A DNA stretch of 36,977 bases from Nitrospirae bacterium JdFR-86 (GTDB lineage: Bacteria > Nitrospirota > Thermodesulfovibrionia > Thermodesulfovibrionales > JdFR-86), in NCBI GenBank assembly GCA_002011815.1, contig MTOV01000002.1, positions 414,409 to 451,385 on the forward strand, written 5' to 3'. Position 1 is the stretch's first letter. Each line of letters opens with the position of its first letter. Shown here piece by piece: positions 1-32,045 of this stretch. Below the pieces are notes generated by a model, which ran no database searches, was not told the DNA's origin, and saw only the letters and a program-made list of their open reading frames with translations. Made by a program: the position numbers and the translations under genes.

Positions 1-1074
1 GCGGCACGTGTATGCGGAACTGCTGCTGCTATATTTATTGAAATGCGTTTCATGCGCCCCAGCATTCGTCGAACCGGTACTCACCGACTTCATAACACCG
101 TCTTCCTTTATCTTCTTTACAAGGTCGCTCGATGTCCTTAAAGGATTCCCGTGACAGTCACTGCATCTGGCAACCACCTTAAACCCTTCCTGGCTGTTTT
201 TATGGCAGCCGCCGCGCCAGCATGTACCTGAACTGGAATCAGTATGCCCGTTATAAACAGACATATTGAGTGTCTGGAACTGAGAGCCATACCTCGCATA
301 TCCTATATTGTTAAACTTCGTCTTCGTATGGCATATAATACATATTGACTTGGTGTCCGGGTTGAGATTTTCACCCTCCGGCGCAGCAGAGTTCGGTCCA
401 CTGTTGTAAAAATACTTTACATACCGCCATGTATTGGAGTCGAATACCACACCGTCTGAATTCACTATCGGCTTGTTCGTGTTTATTACTTCCTTTATCA
501 TCTTTCCATAAGTAATTGAGAATGTATTCCCGCTCTTTGCAAATGTCGTCTTAATATTGCCGTAAACTGTTATTGTATTACTTGTGTTGTTGGCTATTCT
601 GTAATAGATAGGATATTTTATGTTTGGCTGGAGGGTGTAACCAGCCCACTGACTGTCAGTCCAACCAGGATCAGGCGAGACAGTAACCGTATTACCTATA
701 ACACTGGCTATTTTTCCTGTCGCAAGAAACGATTCAGAACGGTATACCCTTGTCTGTCTCTGCCAATGGGGGTTATGACACACTCTACATTCATAAGTCC
801 ATGTTCCATATACATCGCTGGTGGTCGCCGAAGAATGGGTTTCCTGCGCTATTGCAGAACCGCCACTTCTATGGCAGGTCTTACACATGGCATTGTAAGG
901 GGAGTTGTCTAAACCAACACCAGTCCACTCCGGTAATGTCGCATTATGACAGTTCACACATGTCACATTCTTAGATGCATCGTGTGGCGGGTCTAACGCA
1001 GACGCCGTCGCCGCAAACGCAAGTACAAACGCCGCCAGTAGAATCATTAAAAATTCAAGTCTATTCGGCTTCAT
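1..1074 (-). CDS. Multiheme c-type cytochrome (CxxCH/CxxxxCH), cut by the left window edge
   Basis: An open frame of 358 codons runs without a stop from an ATG at 1074 to the window edge, so the C-terminus is missing. It starts with a signal peptide (residues 1-26, ending ATASA). Heme-binding motifs are CVNCH (39-43), CKTCH (64-68), CRVCH (96-100), CIICH (245-249), the unusual CWRGGCH (285-291) and CSDCH (304-308). A further motif probably begins at the edge (YTCR). The CxxxxCH followed by CxxCH resembles a cytochrome domain known from Geobacter. Residues ~115-190 form a heme-free, Trp/Gly/Asn-rich insert that looks beta-rich. The start lies 17 bp after the stop of the NHL/FG-GAP gene, so it is probably the last visible gene of the cytochrome operon. 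The likely role is electron transfer at or outside the outer membrane. The class is sure; the exact partner is not. Confidence 0.9.
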   Translation of the reverse strand, partial: MKPNRLEFLMILLAAFVLAFAATASALDPPHDASKNVTCVNCHNATLPEWTGVGLDNSPYNAMCKTCHRSGGSAIAQETHSSATTSDVYGTWTYECRVCHNPHWQRQTRVYRSESFLATGKIASVIGNTVTVSPDPGWTDSQWAGYTLQPNIKYPIYYRIANNTSNTITVYGNIKTTFAKSGNTFSITYGKMIKEVINTNKPIVNSDGVVFDSNTWRYVKYFYNSGPNSAAPEGENLNPDTKSICIICHTKTKFNNIGYARYGSQFQTLNMSVYNGHTDSSSGTCWRGGCHKNSQEGFKVVARCSDCHGNPLRTSSDLVKKIKEDGVMKSVSTGSTNAGAHETHFNKYSSSSSAYTCR

Positions 1075-1091
1075 TTTCCACACCCCCCTTT

Positions 1092-3857
1092 TCAATAACC
1101 CACCAGCTTGCCTAACGATACCTTTACACCGTAAACGTCCGGATTATCAAATGCCATGAACTCGCTCCTGAAACTGCCGTCAGCATCGTATATCCTTATA
1201 CGCGACGGACTCCGCTTAAACACCCCTTCTCCAACCACTATCTCCGCCACGCCGTCATAATCAATATCACCTGCCGCTATATCAACACCTTTCTTGGAGC
1301 TGTCAATAGAAAATTCAACCACCTGTGTGCCATCCGCCTCGTAAGCCCAGATAGTTGCTATCTTTACCCTCGGGTCAAGCACAGCAGTAACTATTATCTC
1401 ATCTACACCGTCTGCATCAATATCTCCTGCTGTAATGTCTCCACCATGACCTACACCATCACCAAAGCCTCCAGAATACTCCACTGTCCACGGGTCAGCC
1501 CCTGAGGCAGGGTTAACTTTATATATCCTTACCAGTATTGTCCGCTTGCCAGGACCACCCTGCGTAGTCAATATCTCAGCCCTGCCGTCTCCATCTACAT
1601 CGCCAACAGCTACGCTTACCCCCTCCAATCCTTCATACGCTAAGAAGTATATACCCGTATCTACTACAGAGCCTCCACTGTAACGAAATACCCTTACACC
1701 AGATGTATCAGCCTTCGGACCTTCACCTACTATAATCTCAGCCACTCCATCTCCATCAAGATCACCTACAGCAACATCAACATTATGCTCTGTAGCGAAC
1801 GCCCTGAAATTAAGACCCTCTATCATCGTGCCATCTGCCCTGAAGCCAGTAATAATCCCTTCGTCATGCCCAATAACAATATCCTCAACTCCATCCCCAT
1901 CTATATCACCAGCTGCAGTAACCAAACCTTCTTTACCAAAAGAATCAATGTTAATCAACCCCATTAATTCACCGTCACCGTTGAATATCCTTAACTCATT
2001 GGCAACTTCACCCTTGCCCCTGCCCATAACGGCAATTATGTTGTTCCGCTCCCTTAAATCCTTGTACTCGCCTACAAACTCCACTACCGCTCCATTAACT
2101 ACAGAAAGACTGTAAGACGCAGGCTCCTTGAATCCCTCAACCTTGCCAAACGTTATAGTATACGTGCCTTCAGGCACTTCATTCGCTTCAAAGTACGTTC
2201 CGCTGCCTGTATATGTTTTAGGACCTGTGATGGTAAATGTCGCCTGCTCTATATTGGTAGTGACCTTGATTACCCCGCCTTTTATATAAGTAAGAGTAAC
2301 CGGTACTACCGTAGGACTTCCTGTAGCACACCCTGCCTCTACTGTTATATTGCCTGTATATTCACCAGCAGTAAGACCCTCAAGACCAGCTGCATTTATG
2401 GATACATCCGCTATGGTAAGCGCACCAGAAGGACCTGAAGAAGGCGATACACTCAGCCATCCGCTGTCCGTAGAGGCTGACCAGCTAAGCAGCCCGCTTA
2501 AATCACCAGAAAGCTCGATGTTCAGCTTCTCAGCAGGTGGGATACCACCACTTACTACAAACGACATCGACGACGGACTTACATCAAGCACAGGCGGGTC
2601 AAGAACATTGACCGTCACCTTCACGCTCTCCGTTGCACCAGGCGCTGAAATGGTTATAACACCCGTATGCGTTCCAGGACCAAGAGCTGCCGTATTAATA
2701 TTAATGCTTACATTAACCGATGCCGTGCCGTTAATCTCGCCCGACGTCATCAAAGGTACTATCCACTCTACATCGGTAGATATGCTCCAGTTCAAAATAC
2801 CTGGTCCTTCATTAGATATGGTAATGTTCTCCGTAATTGGCTGACTACCACACTGCTGAACCTCATAATAAAGCGACAACGGACTTACCGACAGCTTTAT
2901 ATAATCATCAATTCCAAAAACCTGTATTGTCTTATCCAGCGCTACCACAAGCCTTCCATCTTCTCCTACCTCAATCCCCTTAGGGAACGTACTGTTATGC
3001 TCTGCAATATCAATCCTGCATACAGGATTCCCATCTGTATCAAATACATGCAGAAAACCATTAAAGAAATCAGAAACTATAACCCTGCCTGCTTTATCTA
3101 CCACCACACCACCTGGCACAGATATCGTGCCAAGCTCGTCTTCATACCCTGCAGTGCCAAACCGCGCTACAAATTCGCCGTCTCTGGTGAATTTGTGCAA
3201 CCCTGCACCATAGCCATACTCTCCCCGATACTCAATCAGTGCCCTGTCTACTACATAGACATACCCGTCTAACGTTGAACCGTTGCCTCTCTGACCGCCC
3301 AGCTGATGCGCAGAAACATCGTTTGGCCTTACAAGATCGCCGTCATCAATACCATACCCACCAAACGAGAACAGAAACTCACCGGTATTAATATCGTAGA
3401 CCTTGACCCTGTCAGCAAAAGAGTCCGCTACATATACCCTTTCGCTGTCAGTTGCAATCCCCATAGGATACTTAAATTCTCCCATCCCGCTGCCAAGACT
3501 GTACAGAGGTGTCAGATTCGCATCATATACCGTTACCTCACCCTTCTTGAGATCCTCTCTACCGGTTGACCTGCTGATATAAACTCTTCCTGAACTGTCC
3601 ACAGCCACACCCGCAGGATCGCCAATATTAACTGTCTTGATAAGCTTGCCACTGTAACTGAAAACCATCACTTTATCATAAAATTCATCAGTCACATACA
3701 GATTACCCTTACTGTCAAGGGCAACGTGCAGAGGAGAAAACTCCGTACCCCATCTTATTACCCCCAATGACTCTACCTGAGGACACACAGCCGCAAAAAC
3801 AGCAGATGAAATAAATATACTAATTATTGCTAATAAAATTAAGGCCTTTGTCCTCAT
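1092..3857 (-). CDS. Secreted NHL beta-propeller / BACON-like / PEGA-like / FG-GAP repeat protein, 921 aa
   Basis: The start is supported by AGGAGG six bases before the ATG. Residues 1-22 are a signal peptide. Residues ~25-320 are NHL-type propeller repeats (patterns such as VALDSKGNLYVTD and GIATDSERVYVAD). Residues ~325-525 are two BACON/Ig-like modules, each with a 'W' near a Ser/Thr-rich turn. Residues ~527-600 resemble a PEGA domain. Residues ~605-915 carry five FG-GAP blades with calcium-loop motifs of the type DxDxDGxxxI (GDIDGDGVEDIVIG, GDLDGDGVAEIIVG and similar). There are no heme motifs and no clear membrane anchor after the signal peptide. It sits between the OmcE-like gene and the truncated cytochrome in the same operon, so an extracellular scaffold, adhesin or cytochrome-assembly role is plausible. 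That function is inferred from context only. Confidence 0.9.
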   Translation of the reverse strand: MRTKALILLAIISIFISSAVFAAVCPQVESLGVIRWGTEFSPLHVALDSKGNLYVTDEFYDKVMVFSYSGKLIKTVNIGDPAGVAVDSSGRVYISRSTGREDLKKGEVTVYDANLTPLYSLGSGMGEFKYPMGIATDSERVYVADSFADRVKVYDINTGEFLFSFGGYGIDDGDLVRPNDVSAHQLGGQRGNGSTLDGYVYVVDRALIEYRGEYGYGAGLHKFTRDGEFVARFGTAGYEDELGTISVPGGVVVDKAGRVIVSDFFNGFLHVFDTDGNPVCRIDIAEHNSTFPKGIEVGEDGRLVVALDKTIQVFGIDDYIKLSVSPLSLYYEVQQCGSQPITENITISNEGPGILNWSISTDVEWIVPLMTSGEINGTASVNVSININTAALGPGTHTGVITISAPGATESVKVTVNVLDPPVLDVSPSSMSFVVSGGIPPAEKLNIELSGDLSGLLSWSASTDSGWLSVSPSSGPSGALTIADVSINAAGLEGLTAGEYTGNITVEAGCATGSPTVVPVTLTYIKGGVIKVTTNIEQATFTITGPKTYTGSGTYFEANEVPEGTYTITFGKVEGFKEPASYSLSVVNGAVVEFVGEYKDLRERNNIIAVMGRGKGEVANELRIFNGDGELMGLINIDSFGKEGLVTAAGDIDGDGVEDIVIGHDEGIITGFRADGTMIEGLNFRAFATEHNVDVAVGDLDGDGVAEIIVGEGPKADTSGVRVFRYSGGSVVDTGIYFLAYEGLEGVSVAVGDVDGDGRAEILTTQGGPGKRTILVRIYKVNPASGADPWTVEYSGGFGDGVGHGGDITAGDIDADGVDEIIVTAVLDPRVKIATIWAYEADGTQVVEFSIDSSKKGVDIAAGDIDYDGVAEIVVGEGVFKRSPSRIRIYDADGSFRSEFMAFDNPDVYGVKVSLGKLVGY

Positions 3858-4007
3858 GGCAACCTCCTGCCGGTCCCATCGCCCGGATAATTACTCATAA
3901 CATCCATCATGATTAGGTTTCTACCACTCACCATTAGTTTATGCTCATAATTTATAAAATTGCCCATTTTGCCTTTTATAAACTCGAAAGTACGCATATA
4001 CAAAAAC

Positions 4008-4874
4008 TTACTTAAGATGGCAAGCCCTGCAAAGCTTGCTCTCACTATTCGACATCACCAAAAAAGGAAATGTCCCTTGATCCTTTGCCCCCTCATTATG
4101 CGGATCATGACATGTAGAACATTCCAAACTCGAAAGCGTGTTCGGATTGGAAGGATTCGGGAAAAGCCTTATCCTCGGATAACCAGATACATAGCCGTTA
4201 GTGTTATCTGGCGTCCTGAGCCCCCCATTCCCAACATCAGGATGAGTCGCAGTATAATCAATGCTTATAGGATGGTCATTTCTTAAATCTACAAACGTCT
4301 GACCCGAAGGCCACATCTCACCTATATTCGGGTCAGGATCACATGGTACGGATGCACCCGGGTAACACACGTCTCCTATCTGGTCAGATACACCGTCTAC
4401 AGGCTGCATAAATTCAGCCTCAGTGTAATAGTTTGGGTCCCTGGCCGGATTCGTTATAAGAACATTCAATGCCCCTACACCATCATGACAGCTCAAACAG
4501 AGAAGTGAATAAGCCCTTACCTGATTCGACGCCGCATCCATCGTAGACGAAGAATAAAGCCTGTACCCGGTCCCCTCAGTCGCTGCATTCGAAAGCGCCC
4601 TGTTCCATAAAAGCATTGACGCACCATCCGTAGTGTTCACATACCCGGAGCCATTATACAGCGTGTCCTCCCTCACATTCTTATTAGCACCATGAGGAGT
4701 ATGACAGAATACGCACACCTGAACCGTATAGAATTGAAACTTCGACTCTCCCCAGCTCGGATATGAAAGATCATGCCGGCTGTCTACAACTCCAGCATGT
4801 GAAATCACACTAAGCAGCGTGAAAACACACAGTACTGCAACTCCTATAACCCCTATGAGCCTATATATTTTCAT
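4008..4874 (-). CDS. OmcE-like tetraheme c-type cytochrome, candidate nanowire subunit
   Basis: I chose the ATG at 4874 rather than an upstream in-frame start because GAGGAG lies just before it and the protein then begins directly with a signal peptide (MKIYRLIGVIGVAVLCV..., cleaved near SHA|G). The mature N-terminus reads VVDSRHD. Four heme motifs follow: CVFCH (54-58, followed by TPH), CLSCH, CSTCH (followed by DPH) and C-terminal CRACH. A NDHPI motif lies between hemes 2 and 3. This order, spacing and set of distal histidines match the OmcE family of extracellular cytochrome filaments of Geobacter. It is larger than the second copy in this window because of inserts, one with two non-heme cysteines (CYPGASVPC). 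Neighbours are an NHL lipoprotein, a prolyl isomerase and an outer-membrane barrel. The family call is confident; filament formation is inferred. Confidence 0.88.
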   Translation of the reverse strand: MKIYRLIGVIGVAVLCVFTLLSVISHAGVVDSRHDLSYPSWGESKFQFYTVQVCVFCHTPHGANKNVREDTLYNGSGYVNTTDGASMLLWNRALSNAATEGTGYRLYSSSTMDAASNQVRAYSLLCLSCHDGVGALNVLITNPARDPNYYTEAEFMQPVDGVSDQIGDVCYPGASVPCDPDPNIGEMWPSGQTFVDLRNDHPISIDYTATHPDVGNGGLRTPDNTNGYVSGYPRIRLFPNPSNPNTLSSLECSTCHDPHNEGAKDQGTFPFLVMSNSESKLCRACHLK

Positions 4875-4931
4875 AATCTCCTCTTTCCCCACTATTATAC
4901 AAGCAATTACCATGCCCAATAATTGCTTTTT

Positions 4932-6014
4932 CTACCATGGCCATGGTTTTCCCCCGATACCAGCAGCATCGTCGTCAGCATCGTGGTTGACCCCGTGGCA
5001 TTTAAGAGAACATCTGGGCGTCCCAGGCGCCCCGGGAAGATAAAGCAAGTCGCCATTGTCAGACTCGCTGACAACTTCGGTATTAAACTCTATAAGATGC
5101 TTGTTGTCTCTGCTACCATGGGTTGTATGGCAGGTATAACATGATGTCTCAAAAAACACTATATGCAGATTATGCCTCTTGAAGCTTTCATCCCCGAGGA
5201 TGCTTCTTCTGTCATGGCAGATATAGCAGAGTTCATATGCCTTGTCGTCTTCAGGTCCGTCCTGCGTCCTGTACTCAGCAATAAGAATCGGCTCATAGTC
5301 TGAACCATGCGGACCACGGGGACCAGTCCTGTCGTCATTGCCATGACAGCTACTGCATGTTATCACGCTGTTGACATCGAGATCCCTTACAAGACTCGGA
5401 ACATCCTTATTTTTTCCAGTCATTTCTACCGGATGATACGACTCATTCGCAGGATTAAACTGCTCACTTATATTCTCTGTATCAGAAGGAAGATTTGCAC
5501 TGTCTGAATGGCATAAATAGCAAAGTTCGTATTCTTCAGTCGCCTCTCTGAGCCTAAGACCCAGGGGGACACCTCCCCTTTCCTGTCTTATCTGTCCTGG
5601 GGCATAACCTCTAGCACCTTTCCACGGCTTCTCAGGTGTGGAACGATGCACAACATGACAATCATAACAGGATACATGCCGGGGTGCAGATGCAAGTTTC
5701 TCAGGTAATTGTTCACCTGGACTGTGATATATCGCTGTCTCAAATATCGGATGCCTTGAACTCTTGGCAAAAACACTCTCGATATCAATCCTTGACCTCT
5801 CCCTGTTCAGTGCACCATGACAGTAAAAACACATCTCCTCCATTGGCTTCTTAAGCAGTGGGGTGCCTGAAACACCCGTGCCTGAATGACACCCTGCGCA
5901 ACCCTCTGGCACCTTCGATCTGTCCATATGCGACGGCGTCCCTTCCACAGCCACAACACCCAGCATAACGCTGATTGCCACAGAAAAAACTATAACAGCT
6001 ATAATCTTCCTCAT
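4932..6014 (-). CDS. Periplasmic/outer-surface multiheme cytochrome with eight heme motifs
   Basis: The start is ATG 6014, with GAGG five bases upstream; a GTG at 6020 is in frame but would bury that site. A signal peptide covers residues 1-25. Heme motifs in order are CAGCH, CFYCH, CYDCH, CYLCH, CSSCH, CYICH, CYTCH and a C-terminal CSLKCH, which has three residues between the cysteines. Several come in the 'doubled CXXCH' arrangement (the C-Y-x-C-H pairs). The protein ends in a short Gly/Pro/Trp tail. It lies between the NHL lipoprotein (89 bp upstream) and the OmcE-like tetraheme gene (57 bp downstream). A role passing electrons between periplasm and the extracellular cytochromes is plausible. 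Which membrane side it occupies cannot be seen from sequence. Confidence 0.9.
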   Translation of the reverse strand: MRKIIAVIVFSVAISVMLGVVAVEGTPSHMDRSKVPEGCAGCHSGTGVSGTPLLKKPMEEMCFYCHGALNRERSRIDIESVFAKSSRHPIFETAIYHSPGEQLPEKLASAPRHVSCYDCHVVHRSTPEKPWKGARGYAPGQIRQERGGVPLGLRLREATEEYELCYLCHSDSANLPSDTENISEQFNPANESYHPVEMTGKNKDVPSLVRDLDVNSVITCSSCHGNDDRTGPRGPHGSDYEPILIAEYRTQDGPEDDKAYELCYICHDRRSILGDESFKRHNLHIVFFETSCYTCHTTHGSRDNKHLIEFNTEVVSESDNGDLLYLPGAPGTPRCSLKCHGVNHDADDDAAGIGGKPWPW

Positions 6015-6102
6015 TATCACCTCAACCTTTACTACTGCAGTTCCAGTTGTTAATTGCCCAGTTCATCTCTTTCCCTTTAATAATATACACAAAATACACA
6101 AA

Positions 6103-7131
6103 TTAATCGCCTCCAAGAAACTGGAATACCTGAATCCGTCTGTTTAAGCTATCTGCCACATATATCCTGTCAGTTGTATCAATATATATGCCGGCAGGCA
6201 GATAAAAATCACCGTAAAAATGCCCCTTGCGACCAAAAAACAAAAGCAGGCGCCCTTGTCGATCATATATCTTTACCATGTCCTGCGCAGCATCCACTAC
6301 ATATATATGCCCTTCGGTATCCACAGCAACGCCTTTTATCTTGTCAAAAGTGGAATAAGAATCCCCAATAAGACCAAAAGCCGTCAGAAACTTACCCGTA
6401 GGCGTAAATATCTGAACCCTGAAGTTCAGGGTGTCTGAAACATACAGAAGACCATCCTTATCAACAAACAAATGCGTTGGGTAATTCAGCTTCCCCTGTT
6501 CTTCCCCTCTGCCACCAATGCTATCAAGCCTCTTGCCATCAAGCCCGTATATATAAATTAAATGTGCCCATGTATCAGCAACATATATGCGTCCTTCACG
6601 GGGATTTATCGCAAGCCCAGTAGGCCTGTTGAACTGCCCCTCGAAAAACGAGATGAATTTGCCTTTCTTGTTAAATACAGCAACCTTCTTCAGGTCTGCA
6701 TCAGACACATAAATCCTGCCATCAGGAGCAGCTACAACACCAATGGGCGACAAAAGAGAAACCTCCCCTGCACTCTCAATATTAAAAGAATTCATCGTCT
6801 TTAAATCTATAACACTAACCCTTGAAGCACCGGGGTCTGTAATATAAAGAACCTCTTTATCATCCACAAAAACCCCATGCGGACTAACAAGAAAGTTGGA
6901 CGCCTGAGGGACCAAAACATCAAACTCATCTTCCCCTGTAAGAACCCTTACGAACTTGCCTGCACTTTCCTGCCCGGAAACCCTCCGCAGACTCCACAGA
7001 TACTTTATCCTCGGCTTCTCTGGCGCACCAGGCCAGATTATACTCTCAGACAGCGTATAATCAATACGTGCCTTCGACGGAACACACGAAGCAATAAAAA
7101 CTATTATCAAAATCGCTAACGCCCTCATCAT
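6103..7131 (-). CDS. NHL-repeat beta-propeller lipoprotein
   Basis: The signal sequence ends in a lipobox (FIASC, cysteine near residue 16), so the product should be lipid-anchored. The start ATG at 7131 shares a base with the stop of the prolyl isomerase gene (TGATG), implying translational coupling. After a conserved WPGAPEKPRI segment, about six NHL blades follow (patterns like GVFVDDKEVLYITDPGASRV, GVAVDTEGHIYVVD and GIYIDTTDRIYVAD). It is a paralogue of the NHL lipoprotein at 16228-17409, sharing the WPxxPEKPRI element and blade order but lacking that protein's acidic tail. NHL proteins are commonly encoded next to extracellular-filament cytochromes and prolyl isomerases. The exact role (chaperone, secretion or assembly) is not established. 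Confidence 0.9.
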   Translation of the reverse strand: MMRALAILIIVFIASCVPSKARIDYTLSESIIWPGAPEKPRIKYLWSLRRVSGQESAGKFVRVLTGEDEFDVLVPQASNFLVSPHGVFVDDKEVLYITDPGASRVSVIDLKTMNSFNIESAGEVSLLSPIGVVAAPDGRIYVSDADLKKVAVFNKKGKFISFFEGQFNRPTGLAINPREGRIYVADTWAHLIYIYGLDGKRLDSIGGRGEEQGKLNYPTHLFVDKDGLLYVSDTLNFRVQIFTPTGKFLTAFGLIGDSYSTFDKIKGVAVDTEGHIYVVDAAQDMVKIYDRQGRLLLFFGRKGHFYGDFYLPAGIYIDTTDRIYVADSLNRRIQVFQFLGGD

Positions 7132-8123
7132 CAGTATATCTCTATCTTGGCATTTGCCTTTAGTTCGGATATAAGAGCTTCCTTCAGCCTCTTCCGCTTA
7201 TCTTCCTTAAGTTGCCTTCTAATCCTCTGTGAAACGTCCTCAAAATTTAATTGTTCAGGCTTCCTCACCTCTTCCACTTTTACAATATGATAACCATATA
7301 TAGTCTCGATTATCCCGCTTAATTCACCTACCCGAAGAGCAAATATAGTTTTTTCAAGCTCTGGAACAAGTCTCCCTTTGTGAACAAGACCCAAATCCCC
7401 TCCTTTGACCCTGTAAGGGTCGTCAGAGTAATCCCATGCAAGTTTAGCGAAATCCTCCCCAGCTTTCAGCTTCCTGAGCACTTCCTCTGCCCTCTGCCTC
7501 TTCCTCTGCCTCTCCTCCACTGTCGCATTCGGAGGAACAGATATCAGTATATGCCTTATCCTTCTTGCCTCAGGCCTCACATAACTACTCTTGTTCTGCT
7601 CATAATACGCCCTTACCTCTTCCTCAGAAACAGTCGCTTTGTCTTCAACCTCAACCTTTATTATCTTTTCGATAAGAAACTGCCTCTCAAGCTTCTTCCT
7701 GTATTCTCTATCCGTAAGATTCGCCCTCTTAAGCGCTGCCTTAAACCTCCTCTTGCCGCCAAGTCTTTCTATCGTTTTCTTCCTCGCATCATTAATCTTG
7801 CTGCGCTTTACCTTCATACCCCTTTCCTTGGCAGCCTGATAGAGAAGTTCCTCCTCTATCAAAAGCTTAAGCGCCTTAGGCCTGTATTTCGCTCTCCGTT
7901 CAGGAGTAAGCGTCCAGTGAAAAGAAGTCGCAGGGACAAGCCTGTTCATTACCTCTGCCAGATCAGCCTCGGTCAAAACAGTCCCGTTGACCTTTGCAAC
8001 AGCTTTCCCTCTCTCCGATGCCTCAGAATGCTGAAAAAGCGAAAACACCAGAACCAAGCACAACAGACCTATCCCACAGATATTGACCAGTCTAAAAATC
8101 CCATTCTTATACTCTTTTGACAC
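7131..8123 (-). CDS. SurA/PpiC-type parvulin peptidyl-prolyl cis-trans isomerase
   Basis: The start is GTG 8123, preceded by GGAG. An N-terminal hydrophobic stretch (residues ~12-30) is a signal peptide or membrane anchor without an obvious lipobox. Residues ~40-170 form a SurA-like chaperone helix domain opening with VAKVNGTVLTEADL. Residues ~185-285 are a parvulin domain with the expected landmarks RHILISV, AxEVLRKLKAGEDFAKLA, SDDP, GGDLGLV and YGYHIVKVEE. A charged helical tail completes the chaperone module. It probably folds exported proteins in the periplasm. Its position between the outer-membrane barrel and the cytochromes suggests those as clients. The domain call is firm and the client assignment inferred. 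Confidence 0.95.
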   Translation of the reverse strand: MSKEYKNGIFRLVNICGIGLLCLVLVFSLFQHSEASERGKAVAKVNGTVLTEADLAEVMNRLVPATSFHWTLTPERRAKYRPKALKLLIEEELLYQAAKERGMKVKRSKINDARKKTIERLGGKRRFKAALKRANLTDREYRKKLERQFLIEKIIKVEVEDKATVSEEEVRAYYEQNKSSYVRPEARRIRHILISVPPNATVEERQRKRQRAEEVLRKLKAGEDFAKLAWDYSDDPYRVKGGDLGLVHKGRLVPELEKTIFALRVGELSGIIETIYGYHIVKVEEVRKPEQLNFEDVSQRIRRQLKEDKRKRLKEALISELKANAKIEIY

Positions 8124-8158
8124 GTCCTCTCCTTAATTCAAAATTTAATTCAAACCTC

Positions 8159-10216
8159 TTACCACCACAATCTTCTCAGGTACCGGGTAAATACTCTCTT
8201 TACACTGAACTTCAGAGTGTGATTTTCGCCTCCTGTATCGCTGTCCTGGAAAAGATATGTAGTTTCGAATACAAACCTTCTGCTTCTCCATCTGAAAATC
8301 GTGCGTAAAGACGTAGATTCAACAACAGAAGCATTACCCCACCTTACCTTACCGATAAATAACAATGCACTCCTTATGGACGTCCTTAATCTATATATAG
8401 TGGACAATGTGTATGAATCCATTTTCTCCGTATACCTCGCAACCCCCTCTACCTTCAGGCTGTTTCGGGAAGAAAGTCTCCAATCAATGCCATTTAAAAG
8501 CTTTGTGCTATGGAATGACTGCTTGCTACCGTCTCTCTCTTCCATTACGCTATGAACTACTTCGCCATACACTGAAAGGTGATGCGTAGCTCTCCACTTT
8601 GCATTAAGTCTCACATAATGTTTTGTCTTTCTGCTCTTGTGTTCTTTCGGGAACGAAATATTAAATGAATATTCCGTAAATAGGTAAAGTCTGCTGGTTG
8701 CCGGATAATCCACTTTTGTCCTAAACCATAATGGTACACCTGACTCCGTATAACCTACAGACCCTTCAGTGCGGAGCTTCGCCCTGCGGTTAAAAATCCG
8801 GTCAGTCCATATCAGCCTCTCAGTAATGTCGTAAGTGTATCGCCTTCTGTTGCCTACGTCTTCGTTCTGGGATTTGGTGTAAGAGCCTTTTATCGTAGTC
8901 TCTGAAACTAACCGCTGAGAGACCCTAACACGCTTCCTTATGCCGGTCTTTCCAGCAGCACCAATGCTATACGAATGCGAAATAGTATCACCGCTCTTTT
9001 TATACGCACCCTGGGCGACGAGTGAATAAGGAATGCGATATATTATCTTCATACTGTTGCTATACCTTATTCGGGACCTGAACAGATAGGTCTCGAAATC
9101 CCCAACCAAATCGTAAGAGAAATAGTTCTCCAGTGTTGTATGCATCCATTTATTGCGTGCGGTCACATTTACGGTGTGAGTGTCATTGCCGTTGGTTCTG
9201 TCCCTGAGTCTATAATAAAATGAATAAAAGGAGTCATAGATAAGCTTTTCGCCCCTCTTTACAGGCAGATTGTCCACCACAACTCGCAAATATCCTATTG
9301 TAGTCGTATACCGGCTATCAGACGTCTTTGACTTTATCTCGTTCCTGATAATATTAAAATCAAAAGAAGGATGCTTGAACCTGAAAAGCCCTTTCCTGTA
9401 AACCTGATTCCACTGATTCACATTTCTGTTCCAGTTCCTGTTTCTGTTCCAATTCCGGTTTCCATCATCGTTCCAGTTGGCGTTTCCGTTCCAGTTACCG
9501 TTTCCATTCCAATTGGTGTTTCCGTTCCAGTTACTGTTTCCGTTCCAATTGCCATTCCAGTTGCCATTGCCATTACCGTTGCCTACCCTGTTTATATTCC
9601 TGTACTTAACCCTGTAACGGCTTAGATTATTCCCAATATACTTTTTTGTGCCATCATCATAGGATATGAATTTCCCATTAGATAAGAACACAATCTCGCC
9701 TGGCCTTGTATAAAGCATGCTCAGACCATACGACTGGCTTATAAAATTCCTACTCGTGTAATAGGAATACTTTACTCTTAATGGAGAGGGGACATACTTC
9801 CAGATTTTAAGCCCTCTTGCCCTGTCTATCCCGTTGAAGAAACTCAGGTCAATAGTAAACCTTTTGATATCGCGGTCTCCTCTGACACCGGAGCCTGTCC
9901 GATCAGAAAAAGTGGTGGCAACTCTGAAGGTAGCCAGTCTCGGGTCGAGAACATAACCTCCAAGCGATAGGGTATAATCCTGCGAAAAGATAGAACTCTT
10001 AGGCCGGTCACCCCATTTCGCCTCATAAGACAGTCCTACCGAAAGACTAAGCGAATAATACTTCTGAAATCTCCACCTGTCCCTGCGATAATAACCATCT
10101 GCCTCGCTTGGAAAGACAGACGAGACAAAAGCCAAGACTACAGCAAACAGCACAACTTTCCTGAGGGTGCTGAGCCTTAACAATCGCTTTATTACTGTAA
10201 TCCCCTTAGCCCTCAT
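8159..10216 (-). CDS. Outer-membrane beta-barrel protein with Asn/Trp/Gly repeat insert
   Basis: A 685-residue protein with a signal peptide (hydrophobic residues ~19-36, then SEADG). The rest is dominated by alternating polar/hydrophobic, aromatic-rich strands (for example YSFNISFPKEHKS, YTYDITERLIW, TYLFRSRIRYSNSMKI), typical of a large transmembrane barrel. I do not recognise a named family; a role like the porins of porin-cytochrome conduits is possible but not shown, and no heme motif is present. Residues ~212-272 are a low-complexity repeat (see 9410-9583). The start codon overlaps the preceding gene's stop as ATGA, so it is coupled to the small HTH-like genes upstream. A 35-bp gap precedes the prolyl isomerase gene. 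Confidence 0.85.
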   Translation of the reverse strand: MRAKGITVIKRLLRLSTLRKVVLFAVVLAFVSSVFPSEADGYYRRDRWRFQKYYSLSLSVGLSYEAKWGDRPKSSIFSQDYTLSLGGYVLDPRLATFRVATTFSDRTGSGVRGDRDIKRFTIDLSFFNGIDRARGLKIWKYVPSPLRVKYSYYTSRNFISQSYGLSMLYTRPGEIVFLSNGKFISYDDGTKKYIGNNLSRYRVKYRNINRVGNGNGNGNWNGNWNGNSNWNGNTNWNGNGNWNGNANWNDDGNRNWNRNRNWNRNVNQWNQVYRKGLFRFKHPSFDFNIIRNEIKSKTSDSRYTTTIGYLRVVVDNLPVKRGEKLIYDSFYSFYYRLRDRTNGNDTHTVNVTARNKWMHTTLENYFSYDLVGDFETYLFRSRIRYSNSMKIIYRIPYSLVAQGAYKKSGDTISHSYSIGAAGKTGIRKRVRVSQRLVSETTIKGSYTKSQNEDVGNRRRYTYDITERLIWTDRIFNRRAKLRTEGSVGYTESGVPLWFRTKVDYPATSRLYLFTEYSFNISFPKEHKSRKTKHYVRLNAKWRATHHLSVYGEVVHSVMEERDGSKQSFHSTKLLNGIDWRLSSRNSLKVEGVARYTEKMDSYTLSTIYRLRTSIRSALLFIGKVRWGNASVVESTSLRTIFRWRSRRFVFETTYLFQDSDTGGENHTLKFSVKRVFTRYLRRLWW
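9410..9583 (-). repeat. Coding tandem repeat, 18-bp unit (GN-x-NWN)
   Basis: Read on the minus strand, this stretch encodes a chain of hexapeptides GNSNWN, GNTNWN, GNGNWN, GNANWN, preceded by GNGNGN and WNGN steps and followed by decayed forms in which Arg replaces Gly (RNRNWN, RNVNQWN). The DNA unit is about 18 bp. Third-position changes between units show that the copies are not all recent. It lies at residues ~212-272 of the beta-barrel protein and interrupts its strand pattern. Confidence 0.9.
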
Positions 10217-10569
10217 TCACGCCTTCCGTTACTACCATTACTACTGGCGTTTTTTCTCCTGCCTTTTAAAGGCACTACATATCCCTGCTTCTCAAGGTAA
10301 TTCACATCCCGCTTGAGGGTCGCCAGCGATGTAAGAAGCAGACCTGCAAGGTCTTCATAACTTAAAAGACTGCCCTGCTTTTCAGCTTCGTTCGTAAGCC
10401 TTATAATCCTTCTGCGCCTGAGACCGGCAAGCCCCTCCTGCCTGAGAATCTCCTCATCGTCCTGCCCAATAAGAGTAAGCTTCAGCTTCTTGACACCGCT
10501 GCCGTTGCTCGTCTCAAAGACGATATATTCGACTCTGCCGAAATCCATACTCCCCAAATTACTTACCAC
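10213..10569 (-). CDS. Small HTH-like protein B (DUF1670-like), putative regulator
   Basis: A 118-residue protein. Its C-terminal half has a helix-turn-helix look, with LSYEDLAGLLLTSLATLKRDVNYLEKQG and then VPLKGR. This resembles the N-terminal region of DUF1670 proteins; the assignment is from memory of the pattern and tentative. A basic stretch (LRRRRIIRLTNEA) precedes it, and the tail is Ser/Asn/Arg-rich. It is a tandem paralogue of the next gene upstream. The GTG at 10569 overlaps that gene's end by 11 bp; the ATG at 10548, with GGGG just before it, is an equally possible start. Its own stop overlaps the barrel gene's ATG. Its position at the head of the cytochrome operon suggests an autoregulator. 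Confidence 0.75.
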   Translation of the reverse strand: MVSNLGSMDFGRVEYIVFETSNGSGVKKLKLTLIGQDDEEILRQEGLAGLRRRRIIRLTNEAEKQGSLLSYEDLAGLLLTSLATLKRDVNYLEKQGYVVPLKGRRKNASSNGSNGRRE

Positions 10570-10849
10570 CTGTCACCCTGCCGCCAAGGGGCACTTCCAT
10601 GCCAAGCCTCCTCAAATGGCTGACATCCCTCTTTAACGTAGCCTTCGAGGCAAGCATTATCATACAGAGGTCACTGTAGCTCAACCTCGCCCCCTGCGTC
10701 AGAGCCTCATTGAGAATCCTGCTAAGCCTCTTTCTCCTTAGACTCGCAAGACTCCTACTGTGCCTGTCCTCCTCAGAACAAACAGTAAGCCTCAATGACT
10801 TAAATCTGTTGCTTCCGTCCTTTGCCCAGTAAATCAAGGTCCCGCTCAT
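10559..10849 (-). CDS. Small HTH-like protein A (DUF1670-like), first gene of the cytochrome operon
   Basis: A 96-residue protein. The start ATG at 10849 has GGAGG six bases upstream. It shares a pattern with its neighbour: LSYSDLCMIMLASKATLKRDVSHLRRLG followed by VPLGGR, after a basic LRRKRLSRILNEA segment. The N-terminal ~35 residues form a separate small region. No enzyme motif or signal peptide is visible, so it is cytoplasmic. The LKRDV helix is a plausible recognition helix. It is the first gene after the 386-bp regulatory gap with repeated dyads, which makes DNA binding there an attractive but untested idea. Confidence 0.75.
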   Translation of the reverse strand: MSGTLIYWAKDGSNRFKSLRLTVCSEEDRHSRSLASLRRKRLSRILNEALTQGARLSYSDLCMIMLASKATLKRDVSHLRRLGMEVPLGGRVTGGK

Positions 10850-10951: not shown

Positions 10952-10967
10952 AAGCTCATTTGAGCCC
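10952..10967. repeat. 16-bp dyad repeat, copy 1
   Basis: AAGCTCATTTGAGCCC occurs here and, identically, at 11110-11125. Its core GCTCA-TT-TGAGC is a dyad. This copy sits immediately upstream of the candidate -35 of the cytochrome operon. A regulator binding site is inferred. Confidence 0.6.
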
Positions 10968-11109
10968 ACCTACCATTCGGCATAAAACCTCCATTTGTTC
11001 ACATACAAATAACATGCCAATGCTTGGATTTTCGGCTCAGAAAGCCGTTTGAAAGCCTTACAGAAAGGTTCAGAGGGAAGAAATAATATAACTTGCTTTG
11101 TCAAAAATT

Positions 11110-11125
11110 AAGCTCATTTGAGCCC
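11110..11125. repeat. 16-bp dyad repeat, copy 2
   Basis: The second exact copy of AAGCTCATTTGAGCCC, 158 bp from the first, which is about 15 helical turns. Like copy 1 it is preceded on the plus strand by a TGTCAAAA stretch, and CCTGTTTCTG occurs near both. The rest of the 10850-11235 gap shows only a weak CGGCT/AGCCG hairpin (11033-11047) and no convincing gene. Confidence 0.6.
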
Positions 11126-11199
11126 TGTTTCTGCCCTCCGCCTCTGCTATATTACCTACTAATTTGTTCAATAAATATGCCAGATAAAACCGTCATTTC

Positions 11200-11235: not shown

Positions 11236-12918
11236 GTGAAAAAAATCATTCTTGTCGCCTTCTGGTGCGCTGTCTTTCTGGCATTCCTCACACCTATGGA
11301 ATTAGGGGATGTATGGTGGCACATGCGCACCGGACAGTGGATACTGCAACACCATACACTGCCGCAAGAAGACCCCTTCTCGATATATACAGAGGTCACC
11401 CCTAAAAATTCCTTTGTTCTCAAAGGGTTCTGGCTCTGCCAGATAATGCTTTACGGCATTTACCGCCTCTTTGACTTTTATGGACTTATAGTTCTTAAGA
11501 GTGTACTCTTTACCTCAACCTTCTTCATCCTTCACCGACTTGTCAAAGGCTATGGACTTAAAGCCCCCCTAAGCTATATCGTTCTTATACCGGTAATCTA
11601 TCTGGCAACCTATTATGATGAGATCAGACCCCAGACGTTTTCGTTCTTCTTCTTTGCCCTGACTATATACCTTCTTGAGCGCAAGCGGGGTTCACCACCC
11701 CGTACAGCCAAAGACATGCTTCACTGTTACTGGCCTCTCTTTGCCGTAATGCCCCTCTGGTCGAACATACACCCAGGATTTGTAATCGGCGATGCCATAA
11801 TAGTCGCTTATATGCTTGAAAGCATCATAAGCTCTGCGTTCAAAAAGCCCCGTAAGCTTCAGACATACTTTATCATCGCCTGCTTGCTGTCTGTAGCACT
11901 GTCCTCACTAAACCCCAACGGACTTAAAGCCATTATTATAACTATGAAAATGCTCGCCACATCCGCAGCAGGCAGCGCGTCCATACACGAACACCTTCCT
12001 CTGAAAGAATTCGCATCATTCACACACGAAAACTATCTCTACCTGACAGTCATCGGTCTTATAGTATGCGCATTTTTAAGCTTTATACTAAGAATTAAAA
12101 CACTGGACATCCTGCATCTCTTCCTTGTATCCTCACTTTCATATACCGCCATAAAATCATTCAGGGCAGGAATATTCTTCGCCATCTTTGCAACTGTTGC
12201 AATAGGTAGAAACCTTTCAATACTGAGACAGCCCAGACAGATCAGACATCCCCTTGTTCAAACATCTGTCTTAGCAGCTATCGTTATGGTTATGATTCTT
12301 CTGCTCGGGCAGAGAACAATTCTCACTCAGCCAGTTATGAACAAAAGCATCTTTCCACTTAAAGCAGCAGCTTTCATTGAAACTCAAGCACTGCCCGGTA
12401 ACATATACCATCCATACGAATGGGGCGGTTACCTCATCTGGAGGCTTTATCCGGAATACAGGGTGTTTATCGACGGCAGGGCCCTCGGCTTACGGAAAGA
12501 GCACACAGATGTGCTTCTGGCAAGACCGCAGTGGGAAGAAATCCTTGAAAGATATGGTGTAAACACCGTCCTTTACTGGCCCCTGCTGCCTTACAGAGGA
12601 AACGTGCCGCCCATTATCTTCGCACTGCTTAAGGACGACGCATGGAGCCCTGTCTACTGGGATCTCCAATGCATTATATTCGTAAGAACTCCACTGGCTA
12701 AAAACCCAATCAAAAAAGACTCTATATGGGAACTCCTGACATCACTGGTATCCCTTAATATCAGAAACAATCCCTCTGAACCGGATAACTACATAGCCTT
12801 GGCAGAAATATACCTTGAAAAAGGATTAAAACACGATGCCAAAGACGCATTCAGAAAAGCACTCGCACTGGAGCCTACAAACCAAAAAGCACTGTTCTGG
12901 ATGCAAGTGCTCGAATAA
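11236..12918 (+). CDS. Polytopic membrane protein, GT-C glycosyltransferase-like, with C-terminal TPR
   Basis: A 560-residue protein starting with GTG. About ten to twelve hydrophobic segments run from residue 1 to ~380. An early periplasmic loop has the motif GDVWWHMRTGQWI followed by LPQEDPFS, and a later one EWGGYLIWRLYPEYRVFIDGR. These motifs recur in uncharacterised GT-C-fold-like membrane proteins that may transfer sugars from polyprenyl-phosphate donors. Residues ~513-558 form a TPR-type pair (ALAEIYLEKGLKHDAKDAF). It is a paralogue of the protein at 14243-16090, and the two flank the OmcE-like gene, suggesting modification or assembly of that product. Glycosyltransferase activity is inferred from fold resemblance only. 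Confidence 0.8.
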   Translation: MKKIILVAFWCAVFLAFLTPMELGDVWWHMRTGQWILQHHTLPQEDPFSIYTEVTPKNSFVLKGFWLCQIMLYGIYRLFDFYGLIVLKSVLFTSTFFILHRLVKGYGLKAPLSYIVLIPVIYLATYYDEIRPQTFSFFFFALTIYLLERKRGSPPRTAKDMLHCYWPLFAVMPLWSNIHPGFVIGDAIIVAYMLESIISSAFKKPRKLQTYFIIACLLSVALSSLNPNGLKAIIITMKMLATSAAGSASIHEHLPLKEFASFTHENYLYLTVIGLIVCAFLSFILRIKTLDILHLFLVSSLSYTAIKSFRAGIFFAIFATVAIGRNLSILRQPRQIRHPLVQTSVLAAIVMVMILLLGQRTILTQPVMNKSIFPLKAAAFIETQALPGNIYHPYEWGGYLIWRLYPEYRVFIDGRALGLRKEHTDVLLARPQWEEILERYGVNTVLYWPLLPYRGNVPPIIFALLKDDAWSPVYWDLQCIIFVRTPLAKNPIKKDSIWELLTSLVSLNIRNNPSEPDNYIALAEIYLEKGLKHDAKDAFRKALALEPTNQKALFWMQVLE

Positions 12919-13230
12919 AAACTCCTGACTGTCTAAATTTCGGTTATAATAGATTGACATTGGATTACTTTTTCAGCTATTCTTTTACTCTTTCAGTTGG
13001 CTCCAGAAAGGTCAAAACTTAGGGAGGGAAGGGGGCACAAAAATTGATGCACCAAAAAGGAAAGCAGGACTTCTATAGCCCAATAATAACCAAAATGTCT
13101 GGGTTATTTCCCTCACGTTGTTTATTATCACGCAGCAATACAAAAGAGTTTAATACAGTGATACACCCGAAAGATAGTAAAAAACCTACAAATTATTCTA
13201 TACTATTCTATTATGGAACTATAATCTTAA
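12919..13230 (+). other. Intergenic region upstream of the sigma-54-type promoter
   Basis: This gap holds no gene I would support. A 64-codon open frame at 13044-13238 lacks a ribosome site and coding character. A purine-rich run (about 13020-13036) and an inverted repeat (13085-13108) are the visible landmarks. I found no match to the GEMM cyclic-dinucleotide riboswitch core that controls some cytochrome genes in Geobacter. Confidence 0.6.
13085..13108. promoter_or_regulatory. Inverted repeat, candidate activator site for the sigma-54 promoter
   Basis: AATAACC and GGTTATT (7-bp perfect arms) are separated by 10 bases. The centre lies about 140 bp upstream of the -12 element at 13244, the usual range for an enhancer-binding activator site. 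The role is inferred from position. Confidence 0.4.
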
Positions 13231-13246
13231 TGGCATAAGGTTTGCA
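13231..13246 (+). promoter_or_regulatory. Sigma-54 (RpoN)-type promoter of the OmcE-like gene
   Basis: TGGCATAAGGTTTGCA matches the -24/-12 consensus (TGGCAC-N5-TTGC), with the invariant GG (13232-13233) and GC (13244-13245) exactly 10 bases apart. The predicted start is near 13257, giving a ~43-base leader with a purine-rich ribosome site before the GTG at 13300. Confidence 0.7.
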
Positions 13247-13299
13247 ATATACATATAGTGGAAGTTTTGTGAAAAGATTCCAATTTTAAAGGAAAGGGG

Positions 13300-14022
13300 G
13301 TGGAAGGAGTGAAGAAAGTTTTAATTTTGGCAGTAGCAGTCAGTTTGATAATAGCTGGAGTAGCCGTTGCATCAGTCGTCAGCTCAAAGCACGACATGAG
13401 GCTTGAGGATACCGCAAACCAGAGTGGTGCTAAAGCAGTTTGTGAGTTCTGCCACCATCCACACAGAGGCACATCAACAGACGGCATCACTAACGCCCTC
13501 ATCTGGAACAAGATCTACAACACCACTACCACCTACACGGCCTATGCCACAACTGCAACAATGAACGGTACACCTGCGGATGTCAGCATGTCGGCAAATC
13601 TCAACGCTGATGGTCTTTACGCCACGGCTCTCTGCATGAGCTGTCACGACGGTGCAAACGCCACCAATGGTCTCGTCAAGGCACCAATGGGTGGCTCAAC
13701 AAGCCTTACCATTACATATGACGTCACCTCAGCTAACCTCGGCGATACACTCGCAGATGACCATCCAGTCAACTTCGCATACACTGATATCACAACCGAC
13801 GACATACCTTCGGTGACAACAGGTGTCGGACCTACAGACTACGCTATCGTGGGTAACATCTCAAGCGCAGAGTATCCTCTCTTTGGCACAAACAAGTACT
13901 TCCAGTGCTCCACATGCCATGACGTCCACAGAGGTGACAACAGCGCAAGCAGTGCAGTCCAGTTCATGAGAGGAAACACTGAAAACAGTGAAATTTGCCG
14001 CGACTGCCATACAGCAAAATAA
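13300..14022 (+). CDS. OmcE-like tetraheme c-type cytochrome, candidate nanowire subunit (second copy)
   Basis: A 240-residue protein starting at GTG 13300, with AAAGGA six bases upstream; GTG 13309 is an alternative. The signal peptide ends near VAVA|S. The mature protein (~215 residues) begins VVSSKHD. Heme motifs are CEFCH (48-52, then HPH), CMSCH (112-116), CSTCH (203-207, then DVH) and CRDCH (233-237); DDHPV lies at 153-157. Length, four hemes and histidine positions match the OmcE family, whose Geobacter member forms extracellular cytochrome filaments. The linker after heme 1 is rich in Thr (NTTTTYTAYATTAT), a plausible site for sugars or packing. It has its own sigma-54-type promoter and terminator and sits between two GT-C-like genes. 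Polymerisation is inferred. Confidence 0.9.
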   Translation: MEGVKKVLILAVAVSLIIAGVAVASVVSSKHDMRLEDTANQSGAKAVCEFCHHPHRGTSTDGITNALIWNKIYNTTTTYTAYATTATMNGTPADVSMSANLNADGLYATALCMSCHDGANATNGLVKAPMGGSTSLTITYDVTSANLGDTLADDHPVNFAYTDITTDDIPSVTTGVGPTDYAIVGNISSAEYPLFGTNKYFQCSTCHDVHRGDNSASSAVQFMRGNTENSEICRDCHTAK

Positions 14023-14045
14023 TCCCACCTATGGGGATAAAAGAA

Positions 14046-14071
14046 GGGAGGCAAAATCGCCTCCCTTTTTT
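14046..14071 (+). terminator. Rho-independent terminator of the OmcE-like gene
   Basis: A perfect 7-bp stem GGGAGGC/GCCTCCC with a 6-base loop is followed by six T. It starts 24 bases after the stop codon. It is the clearest intrinsic terminator in the window and marks the cytochrome gene as a single-gene unit. Confidence 0.9.
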
Positions 14072-14134
14072 ATTGGGCTTCTAAATCCAAATGCTTAAAC
14101 ATTCAGCGGAGACCGACCAGGCGGAACACCCGGA

Positions 14135-14216
14135 GGGTCACAGACCTCTTTTTAATAACGCTTGAAGCGTTCTTGAAAGTGGCTGTACCACCAAGCAAAA
14201 AAGTAATCAGGGTTTG
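14135..14216. repeat. Dispersed intergenic repeat, copy 1
   Basis: About 82 bp closely resembling 23665-23747. Shared blocks are GGGTCACAGACC, CTTTTTAATAACGCTTGAAGCG (with small changes), GTG-CTGT-CCACC and GAGCAAAAAAGTA (here AAGC). The centre AACGCTT-G-AAGCGTT is a perfect dyad. It lies between two convergent genes, and no open frame is involved. By eye, identity is roughly three in four bases or better. Confidence 0.65.
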
Positions 14217-14242
14217 GGCAGAGCCCCATAACAAGCGGATAG

Positions 14243-16090: not shown

Positions 16091-16191
16091 AAACAATCAT
16101 AAAACAGACCCTAATGCCCGTGCAGACTATACACAGAAAATGTTGGCATGGGGCAAAGGCTGTCTGTGGATGTTCAAAATATTGAGTCTCC

Positions 16192-16221
16192 TTGACTTTC
16201 AAAAATTTAGGTTATTATAAT
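16192..16221 (+). promoter_or_regulatory. Strong sigma-70 promoter giving a predicted leaderless mRNA
   Basis: TTGACT (16192-16197), an 18-base spacer and a perfect TATAAT (16216-16221). The ATG follows after 6 bases, so the predicted transcription start is at or next to the A of the start codon. No ribosome binding site is present. Confidence 0.7.
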
Positions 16222-16227
16222 TAAAAA

Positions 16228-30514: not shown

Positions 30515-31453
30515 TTAATCTTTGCTGCCGGAGATTTTCTCCAATTTCTCTTTTGCAGCCTTTGCCTGTTCTGAGTCAGGATATTTCTCGATAAGTTCTC
30601 TAAGGATGCCGCGGGCAGCTTTCTTGTCTCCGAGTTCCAAAAAAGCAAATGCCTGCTTGAGCATGGCACCAGGCACTTTCAGGCTCTTCTTGTAATTCTG
30701 AAGAAGCTCCTCGTATGCAAGTATTGCATCGTCATAGTCCTTCTGCGCATAGTATGTCTCGGCTATCCAGAACTGGGCATTTCCTGCAAGATAATGATTA
30801 GGAAAGGTTTTTATAAACGCCTCGAACTGTTGTCTTGCCTCTTCGTAACGCTTTTCCTTGAAGGTATTACGTGCCGCCTCGTATATCTTTTCAGGAGTAA
30901 TCTCCTTCTGTGTCTCTGCCTCTCTTGTAATTTCCTCAAGGGCTGACAGTCTTTCCTTAAGCCGGCTGAGTTCGGAGTCTATGTTTTCTATCCTCGTCCT
31001 GATAGCCTCCAGTTGCGCCCTGCTTCCTGCGGCAGAAATGCTGTCCAGCCTGCTCTTTATGACTTCTATCTCTGAAGATGTCTCTTTCAGGAGCTTGTCG
31101 GTGAAATACTTGTTTTCATCGAACCTGCCGCTTAAGACCTGCACTTCTCTCAACAGTTCAGAGACCTGCAAAAACAGGTTCGCCTGATTCTTCCTGACTG
31201 CTGCCAGTGATTCTCCGTTGCCCTTTTCCGCTTTTGTCTTCAGGTCTGCGACATCGTTCTGGAGTGAAGAAAGTATTCTCTTTATGTCCTCGATGTCTTT
31301 TTTCGTCTGGTAGGAGTCTTCTTTAAGGTCATTAATATCTGCTTTCATTACATTAAGGTCGGTTACGCAGGCAGAAAGCAAAAACACAAAGACCAGAAGT
31401 CCACAAAGAGGAGCAGACCTATAGAGTCTCTTCAAAAGACCGATATTTTTCAT
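30515..31453 (-). CDS. cpoB: Tol-Pal associated coiled-coil/TPR lipoprotein (CpoB/YbgF)
   Basis: 312 residues. The lipobox LLSAC (cysteine ~29) makes this a lipoprotein, unlike the soluble E. coli protein. Residues ~35-170 form a long coiled coil. Residues ~185-305 carry three TPRs, with the typical [20 protein letters not shown] and [20 protein letters not shown]. CpoB coordinates peptidoglycan synthesis with outer-membrane constriction. It follows pal by 6 bp, the standard order. Confidence 0.93.
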
Positions 31454-31459
31454 CCGCCT

Positions 31460-32020: not shown

Positions 32021-32045
32021 AAATTACCTCCTTACAATATCGTTC

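Follow-up and report, generated by a model that had tools for sequence, protein, structure and literature searches.

A row of nine genes in a member of the Nitrospirota brings together an outer-membrane barrel, a periplasmic foldase and several multiheme cytochromes, one of which resembles the filament cytochrome OmcE of Geobacter, and thus raises the question of whether it encodes a complete, self-contained apparatus for the export of electrons. The row lies in a stretch of 36,977 nucleotides (hereafter the window; contig MTOV01000002.1, positions 414409-451385) from the genome of Nitrospirae bacterium JdFR-86 (2.1 Mb, rated 100% complete). The minus strand carries all nine open reading frames of the preliminary description, each showing the features ascribed to it there:

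10559-10849, minus strand: HTH gene 1, likely regulator, DUF1670 family (PF07900, E=9e-11)
10213-10569, minus strand: HTH gene 2, likely regulator, DUF1670 family (PF07900, E=4e-17)
8159-10216, minus strand: predicted outer-membrane β-barrel, 685 aa, with signal peptide (AlphaFold2 model)
7131-8123, minus strand: SurA/PpiC-type periplasmic foldase (Rotamase_3, E=1e-27; SurA_N_3, E=4e-15)
6103-7131, minus strand: NHL β-propeller lipoprotein, five NHL repeats (NHL, E=5e-33; lipobox IASC)
4932-6020, minus strand: octaheme cytochrome C8, seven CXXCH motifs and one CX3CH
4008-4874, minus strand: OmcE-family tetraheme cytochrome OmcE1, four CXXCH motifs (phmmer, invariant ligands, Foldseek)
1092-3857, minus strand: secreted protein with NHL, BACON and FG-GAP domains (domain matches)
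1-1071, minus strand: N-terminal part of a giant multiheme cytochrome, running past the window edge

Overlaps join the two HTH genes (11 bp), HTH gene 2 and the barrel gene (4 bp), and the PpiC and NHL lipoprotein genes (1 base). The intergenic gaps measure 0-82 bp across the row (35 bp between barrel and PpiC, 57 bp between octaheme and tetraheme, 82 bp between NHL lipoprotein and octaheme), save for 150 bp 3' of the tetraheme gene, before the NHL/FG-GAP gene. The ninth gene, cut by the window edge, is whole in the contig and encodes 1,737 aa with 30 CX2CH and 10 CX4CH motifs; about 27 bp beyond it, outside the window, a tenth gene encodes a second giant cytochrome (1,211 aa, 11 CXXCH). From there the co-directional row runs on through a TPR gene and ABC/GldG-like genes to ResB and CcsA (system II cytochrome c maturation), which close its far end (L031:3302-5495). 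A ResB/CcsA pair, together with an NHL gene, adjoins omcE in Geomobilimonas luticola too. Judged by eye, window positions 30515-35097 resemble an ordinary Tol-Pal locus, and much of the remaining window carries housekeeping-like genes.

Conservation of the row, its barrel and its octaheme cytochrome

A search with the barrel led to 18 other Nitrospirota loci, whose genes follow the order (HTH-HTH)-barrel-PpiC-NHL-(tetraheme a)-C8-tetraheme 1-NHL/FG-GAP-giant. Since this order recurs so widely, the nine-gene arrangement is not due to chance; the neighbourhood search proposed in the preliminary description has traced the barrel-PpiC-NHL-tetraheme-octaheme order across the Nitrospirota, with partial rearrangement in distant relatives. 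Tetraheme a, located between the NHL and C8 genes in most relatives, is missing from the window, and the position of HTH gene 1 is kept in at least 12 relatives. At the level of sequence, the parts of the system, their order and the conservation of that order are established.

A scan of genome contigs with a profile of the C8 alignment yielded 526 relatives, the best 80 of which come first from Nitrospirota and then mainly from Geobacteraceae/Desulfuromonadales; C8 is present in 41 of the 246 sampled Nitrospirota genomes. Neighbourhoods were counted for named C8 loci flanked on either side by 6 kb or more, i.e., 28 from Nitrospirota and 20 from other organisms, nearly all Desulfobacterota; the 18-locus (barrel) and 80-locus (C8) sets overlap partly, and their counts are not additive. 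The Nitrospirota loci contain a barrel gene in 26/28 cases, an NHL gene in 26/28 and a tetraheme gene directly upstream of C8 in 25/28. For the remaining loci the figures are 20/20 for NHL, 20/20 for the tetraheme, 13/20 for the PPIase and 0/20 for the barrel. This barrel-less core recurs in Geobacteraceae/Desulfuromonadales, often adjoining a type II secretion/pilus system. The statement of the preliminary description that prolyl isomerase and NHL genes accompany OmcE/OmcS-type filament genes is borne out for OmcE-like tetrahemes, Geobacteraceae included. In Geobacter AOG1, a tetraheme-NHL/FG-GAP-giant-giant group forms a separate locus, preceded by a gene for a sigma-54 activator.

The barrel matches no family in Pfam or NCBIfam and hence has no MtrB/PioB domain (PF11854); its assignment to MtrB/PioB was rejected for want of a domain match. 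Its AlphaFold2 model, built from 19 aligned sequences (pLDDT 79.8), contains about 28 long strands and a disordered loop rich in Asn, Gly and Trp at approximately residues 205-270, in agreement with the prediction of a true outer-membrane barrel. The Asn/Gly/Trp repeat of the gene (window 9400-9610) is extended in many relatives to long stretches of (NG)n or (NGG)n, which cover up to 58 of 60 residues. A Foldseek search with the model returned many general large barrels, MtrB (6r2q_B) among them, and favoured no one family. Within Desulfobacterota, the barrel is absent from three Geobacteraceae genomes and is matched weakly and partially in just 6 of 297 others; its absence from these three shows that C8 does not strictly require it as a partner. 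Elsewhere in the genome, on contig 2 (L033:2415-5383), a 10-motif cytochrome is followed by an MtrB/PioB-type barrel (PF11854, E=2e-10), constituting a separate porin-cytochrome pair.

C8 contains eight invariant histidines besides those of its motifs. Its best PDB profile match is 6r2q_A (E=3e-8, a local match over a short stretch), which we take to be the MtrA position of the Mtr complex, the database listing another name. This match, the size of the barrel in the MtrB range, the presence of MtrB among its structural matches and the tetraheme gene directly before C8 in most Nitrospirota loci could point to a porin-cytochrome conduit, in which C8 would plug the barrel permanently, as MtrA does in MtrB, and the tetraheme would be a docking cytochrome of the surface, with neither a filament nor secretion through the barrel. 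Such a conduit seems somewhat doubtful, however: the barrel has no MtrB/PioB domain, whereas a genuine PF11854 protein is encoded elsewhere in the same genome, and C8 and the tetraheme travel without the barrel in Desulfuromonadales/Geobacteraceae.

The OmcE-family tetrahemes and their surroundings

The resemblance of the tetraheme to OmcE is borne out by sequence, conserved histidines and fold search alike. In phmmer searches OmcE1 matches the Geobacter sulfurreducens OmcE filament (7tfs) with E=3e-18 and 9yuq with E=2e-13. A second member of the family, OmcE2, is encoded beyond the HTH genes and is closer than OmcE1 to 7tfs and 9yuq, as judged by the E-values. The nine-gene row of the preliminary description stands, and the module is not confined to the span noted there, as the row continues leftwards and the OmcE2 group occupies 11236-17409:

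11236-12918, plus strand: polytopic membrane protein, C-terminal TPR, about six transmembrane segments; adjoins OmcE2-like genes in relatives
13300-14022, plus strand: second OmcE-family tetraheme, OmcE2 (phmmer: 9yuq, E=2e-22; 7tfs, E=5e-22)
14243-16096, minus strand: second polytopic TPR membrane protein
16228-17409, plus strand: second NHL lipoprotein (NHL, E=3e-27)

In an alignment of 43 members, including both tetrahemes of the window, all four CXXCH motifs are kept without exception, and precisely four histidines outside the motifs share this invariance, located in the N-terminal KHD, in CXXCHxPH, in HP and in CHDxH (H31, H55, H155 and H210 in OmcE2 numbering, and no others); this is the count required for bis-His ligation of four hemes. 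The AlphaFold2 model of OmcE1, for which a family alignment of 41 rows served as input, has a low confidence (pLDDT 58.5). Even so weak a model passed the proposed structural comparison of the 4008-4874 product with OmcE, 7tfs being the sole PDB match in Foldseek (E=7.5e-5, probability 1.00, TM 0.36/0.47). A phylogenetic tree places OmcE1, OmcE2 and OmcE on one side (100/97), with the branching order among them unresolved and no specific grouping of OmcE1 (4008-4874) with Geobacter OmcE. The sequence comparisons give good support for placing OmcE1 in the OmcE cytochrome family.

OmcE1 and OmcE2 are probably filament subunits. Alternatively, the tetrahemes might be monomeric electron carriers of the surface or the periplasm which share the OmcE fold and do not polymerize, a less likely possibility; OmcE1 is longer than Geobacter OmcE (288 vs 232 aa), has inter-heme insertions and shows no specific grouping with the OmcE clade, and relatives encode two or three tetraheme types per locus, but 43/43 aligned members, OmcE and 9yuq included, keep the histidine of the N-terminal KHD, which is a candidate for ligation between subunits. 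The conduction of current by OmcE filaments in Geobacter is disputed (PMC11077965), as is the physiological value of these filaments (PMC11077965 vs PMC12307469).

The OmcE2 gene sits between the two polytopic membrane proteins with C-terminal TPR, close to the second NHL lipoprotein. OmcE filaments carry glycosylation (PMC9473688), and in Geobacter AOG1 the surroundings of omcE include glycosyltransferases and a TPR membrane protein, besides an 11-motif cytochrome and a large protein predicted to be secreted; because of this analogy, a putative role in glycosylation or modification is at most a reasonable guess for the TPR membrane proteins of the window. Their assignment to a named glycosyltransferase family was rejected, the matches being confined to the TPR part.

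Further cytochromes are encoded outside the window. On contig 12 (L034:49-4552), genes for an NHL/FG-GAP protein and a further cytochrome come after a third OmcE-family tetraheme, and those for a two-component system, cytochrome b and a cytochrome with 13 hemes come before it. Contig 2 (L032:5445-8573) encodes a cytochrome of 1,042 aa with 45 CXXCH motifs in paired-CXXCH repeats, approximately one heme per 23 residues, adjoined by a 17-heme cytochrome and an NHL protein.

Predicted promoters and operators

The elements recognized around the two groups of genes are the following:

4902-4917, minus strand: sigma-54-like -24/-12 promoter GGGCATGGTAATTGCT, between C8 and OmcE1, immediately ahead of the latter
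13231-13246, plus strand: sigma-54 promoter TGGCATAAGGTTTGCA, exact consensus match, before OmcE2
10954-10965, no strand assigned: palindrome GCTCAAATGAGC, copy 1, putative operator
11112-11123, no strand assigned: palindrome GCTCAAATGAGC, copy 2, putative operator
11004-11019, minus strand: conserved sigma-54-like element TGGCATGTTATTTGTA, without the -12 C; precedes palindrome copy 1 by 53 bp
11167-11182, minus strand: conserved sigma-54-like element TGGCATATTTATTGAA, without the -12 C; precedes palindrome copy 2 by 58 bp

As a reading frame from the listed TTG at 4919 would cross the promoter-like sequence, the ATG at 4874 is the better start for OmcE1. When up to 300 bp upstream of genes were scanned with a strict sigma-54 pattern, TGGCA[CT]N5TTGC[AT], it was found before 16/18 genes of the OmcE2 type and 5/14 of the OmcE1 type, as well as before 3/11 NHL/FG-GAP and 2/15 HTH genes; it occurred before 0/88 unrelated neighbours and before 0/88 barrel, PpiC, NHL-lipoprotein, C8 and tetraheme-a genes. 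A slightly looser pattern is present before 12/14 OmcE1 genes, that of the window included (expected 0.03 per gene), with the sites mostly about 40-70 bp ahead of the called start. A sigma-54 site likewise precedes omcE in Geobacter AOG1, G. luticola and G. argillaceus. RpoN is encoded in the genome; the RpoN consensus of G. sulfurreducens reads TTGGCACGGTTTTTGCT, and pili as well as cytochromes for Fe(III) belong to the RpoN regulon there (PMC2725144). The nine genes, described as one operon, probably do not form one transcript, given the conserved predicted sigma-54 site before the tetraheme gene. Because such sites concentrate on the subunit genes, the filament-type genes are predicted to be transcribed separately, and they are probably expressed apart from the barrel operon from a predicted promoter of their own.

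Two copies of a palindrome, GGCTCAnnTGAGC, lie upstream of the HTH-barrel operon and mark its promoter; the 13-mer GGCTCAAATGAGC occurs twice genome-wide, both times in this position. The palindromes follow, 53-58 bp past them, conserved TGGCAT-N5-TTG elements devoid of the usual -12 C. Among relatives, the palindrome is present in 12/15 distinct HTH operons (own count, duplicate loci removed), and copies away from annotated HTH genes lie 0.5-0.8 kb upstream of the barrel (checked in L064-L066). Its arms are invariant and its two central bases vary; for this reason a DNA operator fits the palindrome better than an RNA hairpin, and it is likely to be an operator. The DUF1670 HTH pair is the obvious, though unproven, candidate to bind it. 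Control by a riboswitch was also considered and rejected, as no Rfam family matched the window with an E-value of 1 or below.

Proposed mechanism and comparison with known systems

Taken together, the cluster is judged rather probably to be a module for the export and wiring of surface cytochromes around OmcE-family tetrahemes, with platform and subunits switched separately. Filament formation, electron export and the role of the barrel are what we infer from its parts. PpiC would help the periplasmic folding of secreted hemoproteins, and the barrel would provide the passage across the outer membrane; the octaheme C8, on the periplasmic side of that passage, would hand electrons to the outer tetraheme(s). 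The NHL lipoprotein may organize the site, and the NHL/FG-GAP protein and the giant cytochromes would be located on the cell surface. The platform of barrel, foldase and C8 would be expressed from a promoter controlled via the DUF1670 HTH pair and/or the palindrome, and the subunit genes would be switched separately via sigma-54 promoters. The terms complete and self-contained proved too strong for this module: no inner-membrane quinol oxidase is recognized in the cluster, contig 2 carries a porin-cytochrome pair of its own that is MtrB-like, and both this conduit and cytochrome c maturation genes are located elsewhere than in the nine-gene cluster. Multiheme conduits can run in both directions. 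The uptake of electrons from partner cells or minerals, as proposed for related PPIase and β-propeller clusters with methane-oxidising archaea as the source (PMC10553843, PMC12246660), seems an unlikely function for the cluster, although its direction is not decided by anything in the sequence.

The export module resembles several known systems in part. By domain it is not an MtrCAB conduit: the two share a barrel and multihemes, but the barrel of the window has no MtrB/PioB domain. By content it is not the osc cluster either, whose parts reportedly (Shen et al. 2025) comprise the PPIase OscH, the channel OscEFG and the β-propeller OscD. An eight-gene block adjoining omcS has been linked to nanowire secretion, the osc cluster GSU2500-2493 being cited (PMC12977616). 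The likeness extends to the kinds of parts only, i.e., a prolyl isomerase, a β-propeller, a channel and multihemes: the cluster of the window has PPIase, NHL and barrel genes beside a filament-type tetraheme, whereas osc serves the hexaheme OmcS. Cytochromes of the hexaheme OmcS/GSU2501 type are absent from the cluster, which contains 4-heme, 8-heme and giant multihemes only; the second-best PPIase locus of G. luticola is likewise not the osc cluster. The system may nevertheless work like the nanowire secretion cluster. The OetABI conduit of syntrophic sulfate reducers, compared for OetI by its description only (PMC10553843), also unites a barrel, periplasmic and surface multihemes and filament-type cytochromes in one cassette, but its filament candidates are OmcS/OmcX-like rather than OmcE-like.

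The omcE locus of Geobacteraceae shares the four CXXCH motifs and four invariant histidines, the upstream sigma-54 site and, in its neighbourhood, ResB/CcsA, NHL proteins, further multihemes and a large protein predicted to be secreted; in Geobacter the omcE locus differs in showing no PpiC, C8 or HTH pair, and its neighbour of 748-796 aa is undetected by the profile of the window's barrel. A counterpart of the platform is the PPIase-GT2-NHL-tetraheme-C8 cluster of Geobacteraceae, in which PPIase, NHL, tetraheme and a 7+1 C8 are kept in order. There, the NHL/FG-GAP protein and the giants are absent, and a secretin-type exit (GspD/PilQ, GspE/PilB, GspF, PilM) lies nearby instead of a barrel. 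It is conceivable, if speculative, that the PpiC-NHL-tetraheme-C8 core represents a general machine for the export and anchoring of OmcE-type nanowires with an exchangeable outer-membrane exit. On this view, Nitrospirota would use a barrel of a hitherto undescribed family and Geobacteraceae a secretin of the type II secretion/pilus kind, and platform and subunits would be under separate control, with sigma-54 acting on the subunits in either phylum and the GGCTCAnnTGAGC operator on the barrel operon. According to a recent review (PMC12307469), the secretion, anchoring and electron feeding of cytochrome filaments still await explanation. A compact cluster with a core kept in two phyla and a differing outer-membrane exit narrows the candidates for testing down to a handful of genes, and its sigma-54 sites provide a regulatory signature for finding filament genes.
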